A DNA stretch of 34,691 bases from a virus. The notes below the pieces were generated by a model. The model ran no database searches. It was not told the DNA's origin and was given only the letters and a program-made list of their open reading frames with translations. Each line of letters begins with the position of its first letter. The stretch's first letter is position 1. The position numbers and the translations under genes are program-made. This document shows, piece after piece, positions 5,926 through 34,691 of the stretch. Location: positions 1 through 34,691 of the IMG/VR virus record IMGVR_UViG_3300043436_003650, one strand, 5' to 3'.

Positions 5926-7848
5926 TTATTTTTGAAAATATTTAACCTCTTCTCCTTTTGCATCCAGTGGAAAACCTTCAGCCCAGGTAGGTAGTTCTTT
6001 CATTAAGTTTTCCAATTCTTCTCGATTCCCGTTTTCAACTACGATTTCATCGTGAATATGCATTATAATTGTGTGTCCTGCTTCATGCACTTTCACAACT
6101 GCTTCAGCCATGAAGTCGCGTGCGACTGCTTGAGTAACATTTTCCGCAATTTTGCCACCGTAGGTATCAACCCAAGTCCATTTGCGAGTCACTGTGTCGG
6201 CCCACATGTATTGAATTGATGGGCGCCCGTATTTATTTGGGGCAATTCTAGCTTTCCAATATGTGAGAGATCTACCTGAAGGCAACTCTATGCGCATGCA
6301 CTTGGTGTCTGTTCTGAACACAAAATGTCCATATTTTACAGCCTTTTTATACTCTATGGACTTTCTAGCTGCATCTTCCATTCCCTGCCAAAATTGAACA
6401 ATAGCGCTGTTGGCTTTTCTCCAAGCTTCAACCGTGCTTTCCATTTCTTGGTGTGAAAGACCTAAATCCGCTCCTAATGCTTCACCCATTTTCTCCAGGG
6501 CTTTTGCTCCGCCCTGGTATCCAAGTGCGAGCTCTGCCACTTTTCCTTTTTGGCGGTCTTTATCAGTCATCGTATCAATAGGAATGTTGAACATCCTAGA
6601 TGCCGATTCTTTGTAAATATCGCGCTTTTCTTTTGAATGGAATAAATCCATTCTCCATTTTTCCTTTGCCAGCCATGCAAGCACTCGCGCTTCAATTGCC
6701 GAGTAGTCGGACAGGGTTAAGTGTGTTGAACCCTTTCCAGGAATAAAAGCCGTTCTTATCAACTGGGATAAAACGTCCTGAATATCTGAGAACAATAAAG
6801 TCAAGGTATCGTAGTCCCCACGCTTAACAACCCTGCGAGCTTCGTCTAGATCCTGCATGTAGTTTCTTGGTAGATTCTGTACCTGGACTAAACGTCCCGC
6901 CCAACGTCCTGTGCGATTAGCGCCGTAGAACTGAAACAGTCCACGGATACGGCCATCATCCATTGCGCATGCCAGCATAGAGTCATACTTTTTAACACTC
7001 GTTTTGCTTAATCGTTTACGAAGGTCCAGTAACTCCATAACTTTGGCATTGTCAAAACTAAGTGTAGCTAGGGCTCCTTTGGCTAGGCTTGTTATCTCTT
7101 CGCCTGTTTGCTCTTCTATCCAATTTCTTAGCTGCAAATTACTGTTAGGGTTACTGAGACCTGTAATTTCTTGAGCACGTTTGTTCATTTGCTCTCGGTC
7201 AATTTCATTAATGTGCAATACTTGCTCAATAAAAAAGAGATCAACCTGAACTCCGTTTTGGTTAATCATCTGATCCACTTCATAAAGCTTCTGCTCAAAG
7301 CTTGTTAGCGGGTTAGACTTTAAAATATTGTAGATTTCCATTTCTGCCACAACGTCTTGGCGGCAATACTCTTTAAATGCTTCCCATTTCTCAGGGTCAT
7401 GATGAGGTAGGTTGCGGGTTCTGCCTCCGTTGGTTTTTGTTGGCTTGACGTCCATACAAAAATAGCGTATCAATGCGGCACCTGCAGCGCTTTTACTTTT
7501 AGAGCCTAGGTCTAAAGCTTCAGACACGTCTTTTAGTGCCATAGGCAGTCCATTGTAACCTGCTAAAACTGCAGTACACACCCACTCATTGCCGACGTTT
7601 AAGCCCATTGCCGAAAGACAAACACGCTCAAAAGTGGCATTGTGTGCCAATTTCTGGACCTTTGGGTCCTCTAAATCCTTTCGAACTTGTTCTGGTAAAT
7701 CTGCCCAGTCGCACACTTCGACAGGACCTCCATACGAATAGGCAATGCAAAGAACCTCAAAGTCGATGGCGTCCGCATATTTGTAGACGCCAGACTTTTT
7801 GAGATCAACTGAGCTATAGGTTTCGATATCTACGTGGAGATGCATCAT
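5926..7848 (-). CDS. Family A DNA polymerase with 3'-5' exonuclease
   Basis: This 640-residue polymerase starts with a DnaQ-like proofreading domain: DIET at 7-10 (Exo I), HNATFE at 69-74 (Exo II), YCRQDVV at 161-167 (Exo III). The polymerase domain shows GANRTGRWAGR (309-319), motif A DYSAIEAR (381-388), motif B RQKGKVAELALGYQGG (432-447) and motif C HDE (599-601). All catalytic acids are present. It lacks the 5'-nuclease domain of bacterial Pol I, as is usual in phages. It should replicate the phage genome together with the PrimPol-VapE protein. The ATG overlaps the previous stop (ATGA); a second Met follows directly. Confidence 0.95.
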   Translation of the reverse strand: MMHLHVDIETYSSVDLKKSGVYKYADAIDFEVLCIAYSYGGPVEVCDWADLPEQVRKDLEDPKVQKLAHNATFERVCLSAMGLNVGNEWVCTAVLAGYNGLPMALKDVSEALDLGSKSKSAAGAALIRYFCMDVKPTKTNGGRTRNLPHHDPEKWEAFKEYCRQDVVAEMEIYNILKSNPLTSFEQKLYEVDQMINQNGVQVDLFFIEQVLHINEIDREQMNKRAQEITGLSNPNSNLQLRNWIEEQTGEEITSLAKGALATLSFDNAKVMELLDLRKRLSKTSVKKYDSMLACAMDDGRIRGLFQFYGANRTGRWAGRLVQVQNLPRNYMQDLDEARRVVKRGDYDTLTLLFSDIQDVLSQLIRTAFIPGKGSTHLTLSDYSAIEARVLAWLAKEKWRMDLFHSKEKRDIYKESASRMFNIPIDTMTDKDRQKGKVAELALGYQGGAKALEKMGEALGADLGLSHQEMESTVEAWRKANSAIVQFWQGMEDAARKSIEYKKAVKYGHFVFRTDTKCMRIELPSGRSLTYWKARIAPNKYGRPSIQYMWADTVTRKWTWVDTYGGKIAENVTQAVARDFMAEAVVKVHEAGHTIIMHIHDEIVVENGNREELENLMKELPTWAEGFPLDAKGEEVKYFQK

Positions 7849-8198
7849 TGTCCTGCGTCGTAGATTTTAGTAGGACGCCAAAATTTTAGCGCTTGGTCAA
7901 AGCCGTTCTGATCAGTCAGGTTCCCGGCAATTGTTTTCGTTTGGTCAAAATCTAATAATTCACCTAAGTGCGCTTCTTCTGTCTCAACAACGTACATAAT
8001 TTGACAACCAGCTATTGACATGTTTCCGATTTCCAAAAACCAATTGGTATGCGTTCTGTTTGGACTAAAACCCAATGTTTTTTCAGAAGAGTGAATCCCC
8101 TTAAGTTTTCCAAATACCGCTTTATATTCTCTACCATCTGGAGCTAAAAACCAAGACTCAGTTGTGCAAAGTACGTTCTTTCCTATTTTGTTTTGCAT
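7845..8198 (-). CDS. Hypothetical protein of the replication module, 117 aa
   Basis: The sequence starts MQNKIGKNVLCTTESWFLAP and continues with mixed beta-type segments (REYKAVFGKLKGI, NWFLEIGNMSIAG). It has no membrane span, no HTH and no catalytic motif that I recognise. Its end is joined to the polymerase start by ATGA, and the tRNA-like element lies just upstream, so its mRNA must carry that structure 22 bases before the start codon. It may assist the polymerase, judging only from position. Confidence 0.7.
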   Translation of the reverse strand: MQNKIGKNVLCTTESWFLAPDGREYKAVFGKLKGIHSSEKTLGFSPNRTHTNWFLEIGNMSIAGCQIMYVVETEEAHLGELLDFDQTKTIAGNLTDQNGFDQALKFWRPTKIYDAGQ

Positions 8199-8219
8199 CG
8201 TTCTTTTATTTTAAATTTG

Positions 8220-8302
8220 CGGAGAGAAGGGGACTCGAACCCCTTATCTTTCACTAGGCTGTTAACTCTAGATCGGGCATTGCCACTAATGCTATTCTCT
8301 CC
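8220..8302 (-). tRNA. tRNA-like element with aberrant anticodon arm (possibly tRNA-Asn GTT, or decayed)
   Basis: On the minus strand 8302-8221 folds with a perfect 7-bp acceptor stem (GGAGAGA with TCTCTCC) and a perfect T arm (AGGGG-TTCGAGT-CCCCT). A D arm is possible as GCAT-TAGTGGCA-ATGC with the conserved GG in its loop. The middle is wrong: only 4 bp (CTAG with CTAG) close a 10-base loop AGTTAACAGC, and the body is about 10 bases too long for a class I tRNA. A GTT triplet and discriminator G fit Asn, but U33 is missing. CCA is not encoded. It lies between two phage genes in their direction. Either a decayed tRNA or a tRNA mimic. Confidence 0.6.
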
Positions 8303-8317
8303 TACCAGTTGTAAATC

Positions 8318-8839
8318 TTACAACAAGTCGTCTCCACCAAAGTCCTCTTCAAGTGAGGCTCTTGTGTAAGTGCCTCCTAAAGGCTCGCCATCGCGTGTTT
8401 TTTGCACTGCGTTTAGTGCAACTCCTACTCCTTTGTTACCTGCCTGATTAAAGGCAAAGAAGTTCATGGAGACACGCCCATAGCACCCAGAGTAAACCTC
8501 GCGTGGCGCCATTACTTCTTGGCGGTCCTCATCGACAACGATTGGCGGTTGCAAAGAAGACACATTCATGAAGAAGTGGTTTTCGTACTCCTCAGAGTCC
8601 TTTTCTTCGTCACCGTCTCTCAAAGGTGTTTTCAAACCTTTAGTGCCTTTCAGAATGGTTTGTGACTCATCAATGACGCCTTGGATAGCGTTCTGAATCA
8701 TTTTCACTGTCGCTTTGTCATCTTTGCTGATCAGTATAGTTGTGCTATACTTTGGCTTTTGACCTTCAGTGATTGCTTTTGGTTCAAATAGATTGACATA
8801 GCTCAATCTTACTTCTCCCGTTACTACTTTTTTCGCCAT
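8318..8839 (-). CDS. DUF2815-like single-stranded DNA-binding protein
   Basis: I place the start at the ATG at 8839, giving 173 residues that begin MAKKVVTGEVRLSYVNLFEP; an open frame extends further but only from a TTG. The opening, then KYSTTILISKDDKATVKMIQ, and a C-terminus rich in Gly and Asp (EEDFGGDDLL) match the DUF2815 family, whose members act as ssDNA-binding proteins next to phage DUF2800 and polymerase genes. The acidic tail resembles the interaction tails of SSB proteins. The leader just before the ATG is nearly pure A, as expected for Bacteroidota translation starts. Confidence 0.85.
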   Translation of the reverse strand: MAKKVVTGEVRLSYVNLFEPKAITEGQKPKYSTTILISKDDKATVKMIQNAIQGVIDESQTILKGTKGLKTPLRDGDEEKDSEEYENHFFMNVSSLQPPIVVDEDRQEVMAPREVYSGCYGRVSMNFFAFNQAGNKGVGVALNAVQKTRDGEPLGGTYTRASLEEDFGGDDLL

Positions 8840-8908
8840 TTTTCTTTTTTTTAATGGAGTTAATAAATTATTTGAGTTGTAAATATAGCCTTTATTTTGA
8901 TTAAATGC

Positions 8909-8927
8909 GTAATTTTTCAAAAATTAC
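8909..8927. promoter_or_regulatory. 19-bp perfect palindrome, possible operator
   Basis: GTAATTTTT-C-AAAAATTAC is a perfect inverted repeat of 9-bp arms about one base. It overlaps the stop codon of the DUF2800-like gene and precedes the DUF2815-like start by 70 bases. There is no T run after it, so it is a poor terminator; a protein-binding site or a weak RNA hairpin is more likely. It may separate expression of the two genes. Confidence 0.35.
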
Positions 8928-10102
8928 TGTAAAAAATCATCTGCCGAGTTTAGTTCTGGGCGTTTGTCCGACTCGGGAACTAAAGCGGGTTTGCCTTCAG
9001 GTTTCACAATGACTTCGCCTAAGTATTTGCCCATATTGGCTTTCCCTAGGTTTTTCTCTAAATCGCCTAGGCCTTTAAGCTTGACAATTTTGTTGAGATA
9101 AATTAGCTCATCATAGCCGGCAGTCTGCAAAATGGTCATGGCTTTTTGCTCATCCACTATTTTGCGGTTGCTTCTACCCTCAACAAGTTTGTATCCTGGG
9201 AACTTTTTACCTGCCAAAGCTTCTTTGTAGATGTGGTCCTTCACAGCTTCCAAATAGTTGGTAATGCGATCAGACTTCTCAAATACTTCCAAAAGCTCTA
9301 GATCCGTGCCAGGTTCTTCAGCATTAAAATCCGCTGCAGCGAACTCCAAAGCTTCTTTCTTTAGCGCCGGGCAATGAACTTTTGCTTTGCAGAATCTACA
9401 CCAGTCACCTGGCATGTGCTCACCTTCTCCAGCGTAGGCTAGTTTGGCCTGAGGCTTGACATAGCCCTCAGCCCATTCGATGAGTTCTATTGTTGGAATA
9501 TCCCAAACGCTGACGGCATCTAAGCGCGGCTGAACAATCATCAAACGCACTGTTGTAATGTCATACAAAATGCTATACTTTTCAACTGCCCCAACTGCAT
9601 ATAGTTTCAACTGGCTATTATCTACTGCAGAAACTCGCACACCCTTGCCAAACTTCAAATCGATTACCCACATCAAATCATCAGCAATGATGATGAGGTC
9701 ACATGTTCCAAAGCCGTTTTCAATGTAGACTTCCAAAGATACTTTCTCTTCTATCAGGATCAATGCGTCCGGTGTGGTTGCCCTGGCTTCTGCAATCTGC
9801 TCCAGAACTATTTCAATGTATGGCCCAACTTCAAATTCAATGTCCGTGGTGAACATCGGATGGCGTCGGAGCTCCATTGTTTTTGCATTGAACTCCTTCT
9901 CAGTAATAAAGCCAAGTTTATGTCGAAGAATGTTCTCGGATATCTCATGGGCCAAGGTACCTTCCTCAGCATGCGGAGAAGCTTCTTCCACAATGCCTTC
10001 AGACATTTTTGCGGACGGCGTACAGTTTAGCCACCTTGAAGCCCCAGAAGCAGAGAGAACCGCATGGGCTCTCTCTGAATGGTTTTCTACTTTCTTTGCC
10101 AT
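8924..10102 (-). CDS. DUF2800-like PD-(D/E)XK nuclease
   Basis: This 392-residue protein begins with the family's typical head: HAVLSASGASRWLNCTPSAK and then EEGTLAHEISE. The nuclease core is GFGTCDLIIIADDLMWVIDL, followed directly by KFGKG, giving the Asp and Asp-x-Lys of a PD-(D/E)XK site near residues 135-155. WCRFCKAKVHC at about 235-245 gives clustered cysteines like the iron-sulphur cluster of Cas4/AddB-type nucleases. Such genes normally sit beside DUF2815 and family A polymerase genes, as here. A recombination or replication exonuclease role is likely. Its ATG shares one base with the previous stop (TAATG). Confidence 0.85.
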   Translation of the reverse strand: MAKKVENHSERAHAVLSASGASRWLNCTPSAKMSEGIVEEASPHAEEGTLAHEISENILRHKLGFITEKEFNAKTMELRRHPMFTTDIEFEVGPYIEIVLEQIAEARATTPDALILIEEKVSLEVYIENGFGTCDLIIIADDLMWVIDLKFGKGVRVSAVDNSQLKLYAVGAVEKYSILYDITTVRLMIVQPRLDAVSVWDIPTIELIEWAEGYVKPQAKLAYAGEGEHMPGDWCRFCKAKVHCPALKKEALEFAAADFNAEEPGTDLELLEVFEKSDRITNYLEAVKDHIYKEALAGKKFPGYKLVEGRSNRKIVDEQKAMTILQTAGYDELIYLNKIVKLKGLGDLEKNLGKANMGKYLGEVIVKPEGKPALVPESDKRPELNSADDFLQ

Positions 10103-10590
10103 TACAATGAAGCGATAAAGTCGTGGTATTCGTTGTACTTGTCTTTAGGCAGCGAAGTCACGTTTGCAGCTCCAAACTCTACCAACTTAGCTTTAATGGC
10201 ATTTTTGTGCATCAAAGCTTTTTCAGCTGTCAAAGCTCGAAGCGTAGCTACATTGATTTGCTCCTCTGCCGGTGCTTCCTCTTCTTGTATAGTTGCCGGT
10301 GTAGGACATTGGTCCATTTCTGCTTCAGGTTCTGCTTCAGGTTCTGCTTCAGGTTCTGCTTCAGGTTCTGGAGCTTTAGCTTTACGACTGCGCGTTGCCT
10401 TTTCAGTTACGGTTTTGCTTGGCCCTCCATTCATAGCCTGTTCTACATTAATTTCGAAAGGTTTTGCCGGTTCTGTTCTAAGGTTTTCCACCATAGGAAG
10501 GTCCCCTAGTGTACGCATTAGTCTTTCTAATGCTTCTACGTGCTTGACGTTCGCGACGTCAATTGTTAAACTTACATTCATGATTTTCAT
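10102..10590 (-). CDS. Hypothetical protein with acidic EAEP repeats, 162 aa
   Basis: The first 60 residues (MKIMNVSLTIDVANVKHVEA...) look like a folded beta-alpha unit. A basic stretch with ATRSRKAK follows, then a low-complexity acidic part with four EAEP units made by perfect 12-bp DNA repeats. The last 45 residues (LTAEKALMHKNAIKAKLVEF) look helical, like a small SAP or LEM-type module. The mix suggests a DNA-replication accessory protein with a flexible linker. The start overlaps the HTH gene's stop (ATGA); a second Met four codons on is possible. Confidence 0.7.
   Translation of the reverse strand: MKIMNVSLTIDVANVKHVEALERLMRTLGDLPMVENLRTEPAKPFEINVEQAMNGGPSKTVTEKATRSRKAKAPEPEAEPEAEPEAEPEAEMDQCPTPATIQEEEAPAEEQINVATLRALTAEKALMHKNAIKAKLVEFGAANVTSLPKDKYNEYHDFIASL
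10318..10365. repeat. Four perfect 12-bp tandem repeats (TTCTGCTTCAGG)
   Basis: Four identical copies of TTCTGCTTCAGG follow one another; a partial copy comes after. On the coding (minus) strand they spell EAEP four times. Perfect identity at the DNA level points to recent slippage, so copy number probably differs among related phages and alters linker length without breaking the frame. Confidence 0.9.
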
Positions 10591-33373: not shown

Positions 33374-33799
33374 ATGAAAACTAAATTGACTCTTCTTCTT
33401 TTCTCCCTTGTTAGCGTACTAGCTCCAATTACGCCGCTCATCTTACTTGCAATCGCTTCAATCATTCTTGACACCTGTTTTGGGATTTGGCGAAGCGTTA
33501 AAAAACAAGGTTGGAAATCAATACGATCTAGAAGGCTATCGCACACCATTTCAAAGACCTTGCTTTATTCGGGTGCTATCACGTTTATTTTTCTACTTGA
33601 AAAATACGTTGTTGCCGATATTCTCGGCCACTTTATTGCTATTGATTTGGTGCTAACAAAGGCGTTCACGTTCTTTTGCGTAGTCACTGAGGTAAAGAGC
33701 ATCAACGAGAGTTATCACAGCGTCACGGGTGTCAATGTATGGGATAAGTTTATCGCATTTGTAAAACGCAGTAAGGAACAATTAGAGGAGCTGAAATGA
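33374..33799 (+). CDS. Holin-like membrane protein
   Basis: 141 residues with several hydrophobic spans: LLLFSLVSVLAPITPLILLA (4-25), then AIASIILDTCFGIWRSV continuing the hairpin, a basic loop (KKQGWKSIRSRRLSH), and LLYSGAITFIFLLEKYVVAD with AFTFFCVVTEV further on. The DxxxGIW-x-basic pattern and the ENY-like ESYHSVTGVNVWDKF end match the phage holin family (toxin secretion/lysis type). It would make holes for the endolysin. ATGA coupling to the spanin gene supports the lysis assignment. Confidence 0.8.
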   Translation: MKTKLTLLLFSLVSVLAPITPLILLAIASIILDTCFGIWRSVKKQGWKSIRSRRLSHTISKTLLYSGAITFIFLLEKYVVADILGHFIAIDLVLTKAFTFFCVVTEVKSINESYHSVTGVNVWDKFIAFVKRSKEQLEELK

Positions 33800-34335
33800 G
33801 ACCTGTACGCGCAACAATAGTTTACTTTCTGATTTACGCCGCATTTGTCATGCTTTGGAGTTTCCTGATGTATGGATGCTCAGCAGAGCGACTACACCAA
33901 AAGGCAGTAAATAAAGGCTACATTCACACTATTCATGTGGATACTTTCAAGGTTGCGAGAGTGGACACCATGTGGAGAGATGGCAAACCATACCCCGTAG
34001 TTACATACAAGGACTCTTTAGTTGTACGCACTGAAATCAAATACGTTCCTAGATGGGTTTATCGGTTCGATAACAAGCGATTTGCGGATAGTTTGGCACA
34101 AATACGTGCAATGTATGAAGCCAAGCTAAAAAACGAGCTTAAAAGGCAAAAAATCAAGTCACATGAAAAAAAGATAGCAACCAAGCAGAAGACCAAGCAA
34201 ACGCAAAGCGAGAATAAAAACGGATTTGCGGATGCAATGAAGTGGGTAGCGTTGTCTATTTTCAGCACCGCTCTGATTCTTTTGCTTATTATTGTTATTC
34301 GAGCAATAAAACGCTACATTGTAATCAATGGCTAA
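33796..34335 (+). CDS. One-piece (unimolecular) spanin candidate
   Basis: 179 residues. The N-terminus (residues 7-27, ATIVYFLIYAAFVMLWSFLM and YG) is a signal-like span ending in LMYGCSAE, with Cys28 as possible lipid attachment. A periplasmic part with beta character (residues 40-95) and a long charged helix (100-145, KLKNELKRQKIKSHEKK) follows, and then a second membrane span at about 149-171 (VALSIFSTALILLLIIVI). Lipid anchor at one end and inner-membrane span at the other is the plan of u-spanins, which fuse the two membranes in the last lysis step. It lies between holin and endolysin. Confidence 0.65.
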   Translation: MRPVRATIVYFLIYAAFVMLWSFLMYGCSAERLHQKAVNKGYIHTIHVDTFKVARVDTMWRDGKPYPVVTYKDSLVVRTEIKYVPRWVYRFDNKRFADSLAQIRAMYEAKLKNELKRQKIKSHEKKIATKQKTKQTQSENKNGFADAMKWVALSIFSTALILLLIIVIRAIKRYIVING

Positions 34336-34348
34336 AATTTTCTAGAAT

Positions 34349-34691
34349 ATGCTTACCACTGCCCAAATAGAAAAAAAATATGGAGTAGCAGATCCGAAAG
34401 GCGGTTATCTGAAAACCATTGATTTGCCCTATCCTATGCGACTTGCTTGGGATACTAAAACTGTAGTCAAAAAGATGAGATGCCATAAATTAGTGGCCGA
34501 TGCCTTTTTGGCTGTTTTTAATGAATTACTAGAGGCCTATGGCCATGAAGAAATAGTAAAACTTGGCATTGACCTTTTTGGAGGCTGTTTTGAGTACCGC
34601 AAAATGAGAGGAGGGTCTAATATCAGTAGACATTCCTGGGGAATTGCTATTGATTTAGACCCTTCTAGAAATTTGCTGAAAGAAACAGCAA
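34349..34691 (+). CDS. M15-type endolysin, N-terminal part (cut by window end)
   Basis: The ATG at 34349 begins MLTTAQIEKKYG and the frame runs off the end after 114 codons. The last 42 of these are the same codons seen at the left edge, so the full protein is 154 residues. The N-terminal third (to about residue 70) shows no cell-wall-binding repeat, so this is a bare catalytic domain, as is usual for phages of Gram-negative hosts. It follows the spanin gene by 13 bases and closes the holin-spanin-endolysin cassette. Confidence 0.9.
   Translation, partial: MLTTAQIEKKYGVADPKGGYLKTIDLPYPMRLAWDTKTVVKKMRCHKLVADAFLAVFNELLEAYGHEEIVKLGIDLFGGCFEYRKMRGGSNISRHSWGIAIDLDPSRNLLKETA
34565..34691. repeat. 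127-bp exact direct terminal repeat (right copy)
   Basis: Second copy of bases 1-127. Together the copies show circular closure, or a circularly permuted genome. It lies wholly inside the endolysin gene, which is an unlikely place for a natural packaging repeat. Confidence 0.95.

Follow-up and report, generated by a model that had tools for sequence, protein, structure and literature searches.

The virus record IMGVR_UViG_3300043436_003650 of IMG/VR, whose full length of 34,691 nucleotides (nt) is here termed the window, carries on its minus strand an 83-nt element that resembles a transfer RNA (tRNA) and in which a different structure occupies the place of the anticodon arm. It is a non-decoding tRNA-like RNA that recurs in relatives at the same place and in the same orientation, evolves slowly and has co-varying arms. 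A larger fact than the single element is that it belongs to a family tied to the boundary between the genes for a single-stranded DNA-binding protein (ssb) and a family A DNA polymerase (polA). Judged from these sequence comparisons, the window element is preserved by natural selection; it is not an isolated curiosity, nor is it simply a relic. By analogy, we favour, at about an even chance, the reading that it is a phage counterpart of the mitochondrial t-elements, which would be cut by host RNase P and RNase Z and thereby separate the ssb and polA messages.

Structure of the element in the window

The original prediction, made from the letters of the window, described perfect acceptor and T arms, a middle with a 4-base-pair (bp) stem and a 10-base loop, and a body about 10 bases too long; both this description and its coordinates proved exact. 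The parts of the element are as follows:

8302..8220, minus strand: tRNA-like element, 83 nt including the discriminator G (8220); full-length alignment to RF00005, fold, and a near-identical copy in the nearest relative
8296..8302, minus strand: acceptor 5' strand GGAGAGA, 7/7 pairs with 8221-8227
8221..8227, minus strand: acceptor 3' strand TCTCTCC, then N73 = G (8220) and CAA
8277..8292, minus strand: D arm GCAT-TAGTGGCA-ATGC, stem 8289-8292 with 8277-8280
8254..8271, minus strand: replacement of the anticodon arm, CTAG-(AGTTAACAGC)-CTAG, 4 bp (8268-8271 with 8254-8257) and a 10-nt loop
8228..8244, minus strand: T arm AGGGG-TTCGAGT-CCCCT, 5/5 pairs

Features of a tRNA are thus present in the 7-bp acceptor, the T arm with TTCRA and the D arm with GG, and RNA folding returns a cloverleaf whose third arm is odd; its z of -1.84 against shuffles is by itself unremarkable. 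The element is about 10 nt longer than a class I tRNA; a 5-bp anticodon stem with a 7-nt loop, U33 and purine 37 is absent, and no register of the element offers at least 4 pairs with T33 and R37. Its RF00005 score of 22.6 bits lies below the gathering score of 29 and hence below that of a decoding tRNA. No Rfam family matches the window at the gathering threshold, and ARAGORN reports 0 tRNAs and 0 transfer-messenger RNA genes in it. Both the rescoring with these tools and the search for a normal anticodon arm in another register, which had been proposed as checks of the original prediction, bear it out. In the nearest relative, contig IMGVR_UViG_3300020043_008010 (locus L011; polA 91% identical), the base adjoining the CTAG stem is changed, which makes a fifth pair (G-U) possible.

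These data bear on the idea of a functional tRNA with an unusual anticodon arm (intron-bearing, expanded-loop or class II), which could appeal to the several elements of the family labelled tRNA-??? by ARAGORN, with 2- or 4-base anticodons. Given the missing register in the window element and the absence of arms in the 51-61-nt forms, we regard it as very improbable. In its tRNA-like fold, its location at the end of a protein gene and its sense strand, the window element agrees with the t-elements.

DNA similarity searches with the window element returned only short stretches in unrelated phages, mostly tRNA ends, and exact pattern searches found it in the nearest relative, with no other copies. 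A primer-binding site for tRNA-primed replication was dropped as an explanation, the 87-nt element having a single place in its own record. An attachment site was likewise dropped, by inference, since the element retains its 5' acceptor strand and sits within the early operon.

A family at the boundary between ssb and polA

A polA profile (A1) retrieved 80 viral loci, and RF00005 was run over the 80 whole records (40 + 40, the second batch including the nearest relative). At E<=1, 46 of 63 matches fell at most 1.1 kb upstream of polA in the sense orientation (41 records) and 17 elsewhere; at 29 bits or more the corresponding figure was 29 of 36 (26 records). No RF00005 match was found near polA on the opposite strand in these 80 records. 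A strict scan of the 80 relatives for a 5-bp T stem, a TTCRA loop and a 7-bp acceptor gave 30 sense matches in 83 kb upstream of polA, compared with 2 in 520 kb of sense sequence from other parts of the same loci and 1 in 603 kb of antisense sequence. A relaxed scan produced 61 matches in 47 of 121 loci (128 kb) versus 98 in a background of 1.75 Mb. Three of the 61 were judged false and dropped (L034 1127, L070 2023 and L078 607), and further rows (L227, L238 and L244 2096) were removed before the counts. For the counts of 3' flanks and anticodon arms identical sequences were counted once, giving 55 distinct elements; the sample contains near-duplicate records (L048/L051, L072/L074 and L073/L075).

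Within the measured ssb-polA gaps, 32 of 58 elements adjoin a gene end, against 18.7 by random placement (P 5e-5): 10 of the 58 start at gap position 7-16 past the ssb stop, and in 22 the end lies 3-47 nt short of the polA start, with only 3 nt from acceptor to start codon, discriminator included, in L242 and L244. The commonest 3' flank in the family is N73-CAA (28/55). Croceibacter phage P2559Y (26696-26782) and Bacteroides phage BF503P2 (L135 2883-2948) each have an element that is not annotated as any feature, and four elements lie upstream of polA in a Firmicutes-type metagenome-assembled genome (MAG) of Eubacterium (L107, 2084-2953). Tandem sets of different elements occur in L031, L035, L042 and L107. 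The other 26 genome loci gave no convincing element, with one doubtful match in L113. Elements of this kind are not confined strictly to the surroundings of polA: another one, tRNA-like and without a normal anticodon arm, lies 8 kb downstream of polA, and the next reading frame begins about 31 nt after it (L247 311-377; L248 1211-1277).

As the acceptor and T arm were the search criteria, the fact that they are intact is no evidence on its own; the arguments from placement, strand, D arm, co-variation and slow evolution are independent of these criteria, or dependent on them only in part. A D arm is found in 49 of 58 elements versus 14.0 in shuffles. The lenient anticodon-arm test (at least 4 pairs, T33, R37) is passed by 6 of the 55 distinct elements, close to the 7.8% expected for shuffled middles, and the same test with 5 pairs by 1 of 55. 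All 19 host tRNAs from a Bergeyella MAG and Bacteroides stercorirosoris pass it, and the contig of L035 has, far from polA, a tRNA cluster with normal arms in 3 of 3 tested, its three polA-side elements lacking such arms. Counting the discriminator, the elements measure 40 to 134 nt, the shortest consisting of acceptor and T arm only; 39-nt minihelices (acceptor, 8 nt, T arm) are present in L052, L058 and L060. At default settings ARAGORN accepts 24 of 60 elements, assigning anticodons of 2 or 4 bases to many of them, and some may therefore be entered as tRNAs in databases; at -ps60 the program calls 'tRNAs' everywhere. By eye, recurring palindromes, GTTAAC among them, were seen in the loops.

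The element of the nearest relative is truncated by the contig end and directly followed by a second one with a different acceptor. It differs from the window element at 3 of 70 shared bases (4.3%), compared with 97 of 235 four-fold sites in polA (41%); the similarity ends at the 3' end of the element, and the downstream gene differs. Likewise, L043 and L055 show 1 difference in 86 nt against a four-fold divergence of 21%, and L095 and L096 show 6 in 121 against 18.6%, the first acceptor pair having switched from A-T to G-C. In an alignment of four homologous elements (A3; L055, L043, L056 and L045) all 64 cells of the acceptor, D and T arms pair and 6 of 16 pairs change on both sides, values reached by 0 of 500 shuffles. 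L189 and L190 likewise differ by a pair swap, CTAAG/CTTAG to CCAAG/CTTGG, in the arm that stands at the anticodon position and encloses a 12-nt loop. Acceptor and T stems contain 50 G-U versus 3 A-C pairs in the RNA sense, a count biased by the scan, which admits G-U.

Consequently, the claim that the retained acceptor/T half serves a use instead of being a remnant finds support in purifying selection, co-variation and recurrence in dozens of phages. A relic of a phage tRNA gene with lost function might be suspected from the intact, true-looking tRNA-Ser(GCT) at the polA-side locus of L039, from the ARAGORN calls, some with an ordinary anticodon, and from the phage tRNAs of L246, which carry the same ACAA-type flank. 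The L039 gene indicates that ordinary tRNAs can occupy the slot; relatives with an intact tRNA had been named as grounds for taking the window element as a relic, and one such tRNA does exist, yet the window element is not simply a decayed copy. Decay would be expected everywhere instead of being confined to the anticodon arm, and the arms of the window element have not decayed alike. Moreover, compensatory changes occur in all three arms, and polA four-fold sites diverge much faster than the element, by which the relic reading is already contradicted for the window element. We therefore consider it quite unlikely, although the likeness between the window and L011 elements may stem from recent exchange, which would revive it.

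The early operon and its possible processing

The early genes of the window run leftward on the minus strand, in the order DUF2800 nuclease, DUF2815 single-stranded DNA-binding protein, element, 117-aa gene, family A polymerase, VapE-type protein and SNF2 helicase. Those next to the element are:

8318..8839, minus strand: ssb, gene for a DUF2815 / Gp2.5-like single-stranded DNA-binding protein (PF10991, E 9e-61; phrog_112)
7845..8198, minus strand: 117-aa gene, function unassigned (phrog_22562; another gene in L011)
5926..7848, minus strand: polA, family A DNA polymerase gene, anchor of the element family (PF00476; phrog_17)

The ssb stop lies 15 nt before the element and the ATG of the 117-aa gene 21 nt after the discriminator; by eye, a small hairpin, GTTGTAA-gat-TTACAAC, spans the ssb stop and ends 5 nt before the element. 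At 7800-9000 no sigma-70-type promoter and no terminator were found, Bacteroidota promoters being outside the coverage of that scan, and this fits co-transcription.

RNase P, RNase Z and the CCA-adding enzyme recognize the features that the elements have kept; the anticodon arm, which they have lost, is needed for decoding and by many synthetases. Together with the boundary placement and the fit to co-transcription, the kept features favour cutting by RNase P and RNase Z. The element would be part of an early transcript between the ssb and polA genes, in which host RNase P would cut at its 5' end and RNase Z at its 3' end. Cleavage would free an ssb message with a defined 3' end and a message for the polymerase (or the 117-aa gene) whose 5' leader is short and defined, and the separated ssb and polA genes could be expressed at different levels. 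As neither enzyme needs the anticodon arm, it would be free to vary. A hairpin of at least 7 bp lies between ssb and the first element in 27 of the 34 loci with room for one, and in 11 of these 27 it ends at most 7 nt from the 5' end of the element, where an RNase P cut would leave a hairpin-ended ssb message. In the consulted portions of the respective papers, tRNA-like sequences at mRNA ends are cut by RNase P and RNase Z in plant mitochondria as t-elements (PMC11658184), acceptor/T-arm hairpins are efficient model substrates of RNase P (PMC11143913), and bacterial RNase P cleavage of mRNAs and phage-induced regulatory RNAs is given as established (PMC4919922).

Several observations weigh against simple processing. 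No element lies near either gene end in 16 of 44 loci, and the hairpins in 27 of 34 loci indicate that the element is not simply a terminator replacement. Element-free ssb-polA boundaries mostly have a short gap (<30 nt in 35 of 119) or a plain hairpin (at least 6 bp in 84 of 84 gaps of at least 30 nt, the long gaps having no chance control); the argument that a hairpin replaces the element is weakened, most element-bearing loci also carrying one. Three of the four L107 elements share the acceptor CGGAACG and differ in their middles, which is odd for mere punctuation. The comparison of arms and middle suggested with the original prediction gave a divided answer: the arms are kept and co-vary, but between close relatives the middle is equally conserved (1 change in about 32 nt for window/L011, 0 in 36 for L043/L055), and processing has no need of a conserved middle. 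Furthermore, L012 and L013 (polA 92% identical) hold different elements at the same site, a turnover that resembles an arms race.

The conserved middle and the whole-element exchange point to an added trans function, and the main rival reading is accordingly that of a decoy: a released tRNA-like RNA would soak up host enzymes that attack tRNAs, such as nucleases or acceptor-end-modifying toxins of defence systems, its anticodon arm being disposable or deliberately useless. Close relatives have rapidly exchanged whole elements, different elements stand in tandem, and conservation is strong over short times, middle included; all of this agrees with a decoy, as do 5-bp/7-nt arms that usually lack U33 (the first element of L035, L083, L097 and two in L107; U33 only in L039). 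A fixed side of polA and gene boundaries are not required of a decoy, however, and several elements lack most of the tRNA body; on its own we hold the decoy to be rather doubtful. Slightly less doubtful, and still tentative, is a combination in which the elements form a widespread unannotated class of phage RNA, mimics of tRNA that do not decode, in phages of Bacteroidota and some Firmicutes, with a constant top half and a cassette-swapped middle, placed at the ssb-polA boundary and joining a role in trans (e.g. as decoy) to the marking of transcript ends.

A third possibility is a translational operator, i.e., a structure controlling initiation of polA or of the following gene, perhaps through a bound phage protein, for example the polymerase; T4 polymerase binds its own mRNA and thereby controls its translation. 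The 22 of 58 elements that end 3-47 nt before a start codon are compatible with this. Nevertheless, the acceptor sequences have nothing in common across phages, the minihelix forms of the element lie 283-292 nt away, and in both the window and L011 the element is followed by a gene other than polA, leaving an operator unlikely. A translational signal placed before the 117-aa gene is a weak proposal, given that the nearest relative has a different gene behind the element. Thus, the interpretation in the original prediction stands in part: of the uses it had offered, RNase P/RNase Z processing fits best and translational signalling poorly.

In the slot between element and polA, the genes at 7845-8198 of the window and 191-443 of L011 are unrelated. 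The 117-aa protein has no close relative among the viral contigs; distant relatives occur in Aeromonas, Erwinia, Pseudomonas, Flavobacterium and Cellulophaga phages. An identical 28-nt box, TTTTTTGGTTTAAAAAAGTTAATCTTAG, is present in the ssb-polA gap of about 7 contigs (12 loci listed), with positions L012 4156-4183, L013 1976-2003, L052 2850-2877, L058 2851-2878, L060 2851-2878 and L086 2852-2879, and is perhaps a phage promoter. In L058 and L060 it is followed by about 100 nt ending in a terminator-like hairpin just before polA, possibly another small RNA. Elsewhere in the window, 10102-10590 encodes a protein with a tandem PEAE repeat, which also yields long chance reading frames on the opposite strand. 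The left end of the window cuts a peptidase frame (1-249 and 34336-34691); since in L004 the complete gene lies behind the homologue of 33796-34335, the genome in this record is probably circularly permuted.

Relation to known systems

Like the t-elements of plant mitochondria, the phage elements are tRNA-like folds at gene ends, on the sense strand and unsuited for decoding. They differ in sitting at one conserved gene boundary, in the loss or remodelling of the anticodon arm, and in that their cleavage is what we infer. The 39-nt elements of L052, L058 and L060 resemble the minimal RNase P substrates, hairpins of acceptor and T arm that the enzyme cleaves (PMC11143913), but are natural genome sequences without an encoded CCA. 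The cutting of polycistronic bacterial mRNAs and of phage-induced RNAs by RNase P is a further known parallel, but the consulted part of PMC4919922 describes no complete tRNA-like fold that occupies a fixed gene boundary. Canonical phage tRNA genes have the same acceptor, D and T arms, and the N73-CAA flank is also found on the tRNAs of L246; in contrast to these genes, the phage elements have no decoding arm and a fixed position beside polA. Among the entries listed by searches of open-access papers on phage tRNA-like elements, pseudo-tRNAs, missing anticodons, t-elements and P2559Y, none was seen to describe such elements.

The unannotated copies in the cultured phages P2559Y and BF503P2 make the idea directly testable. 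If it is true, some odd or missed tRNA genes in phage databases would not be tRNAs at all, and phages would use the tRNA-maturation enzymes of their hosts to divide a replication operon, as mitochondria do.
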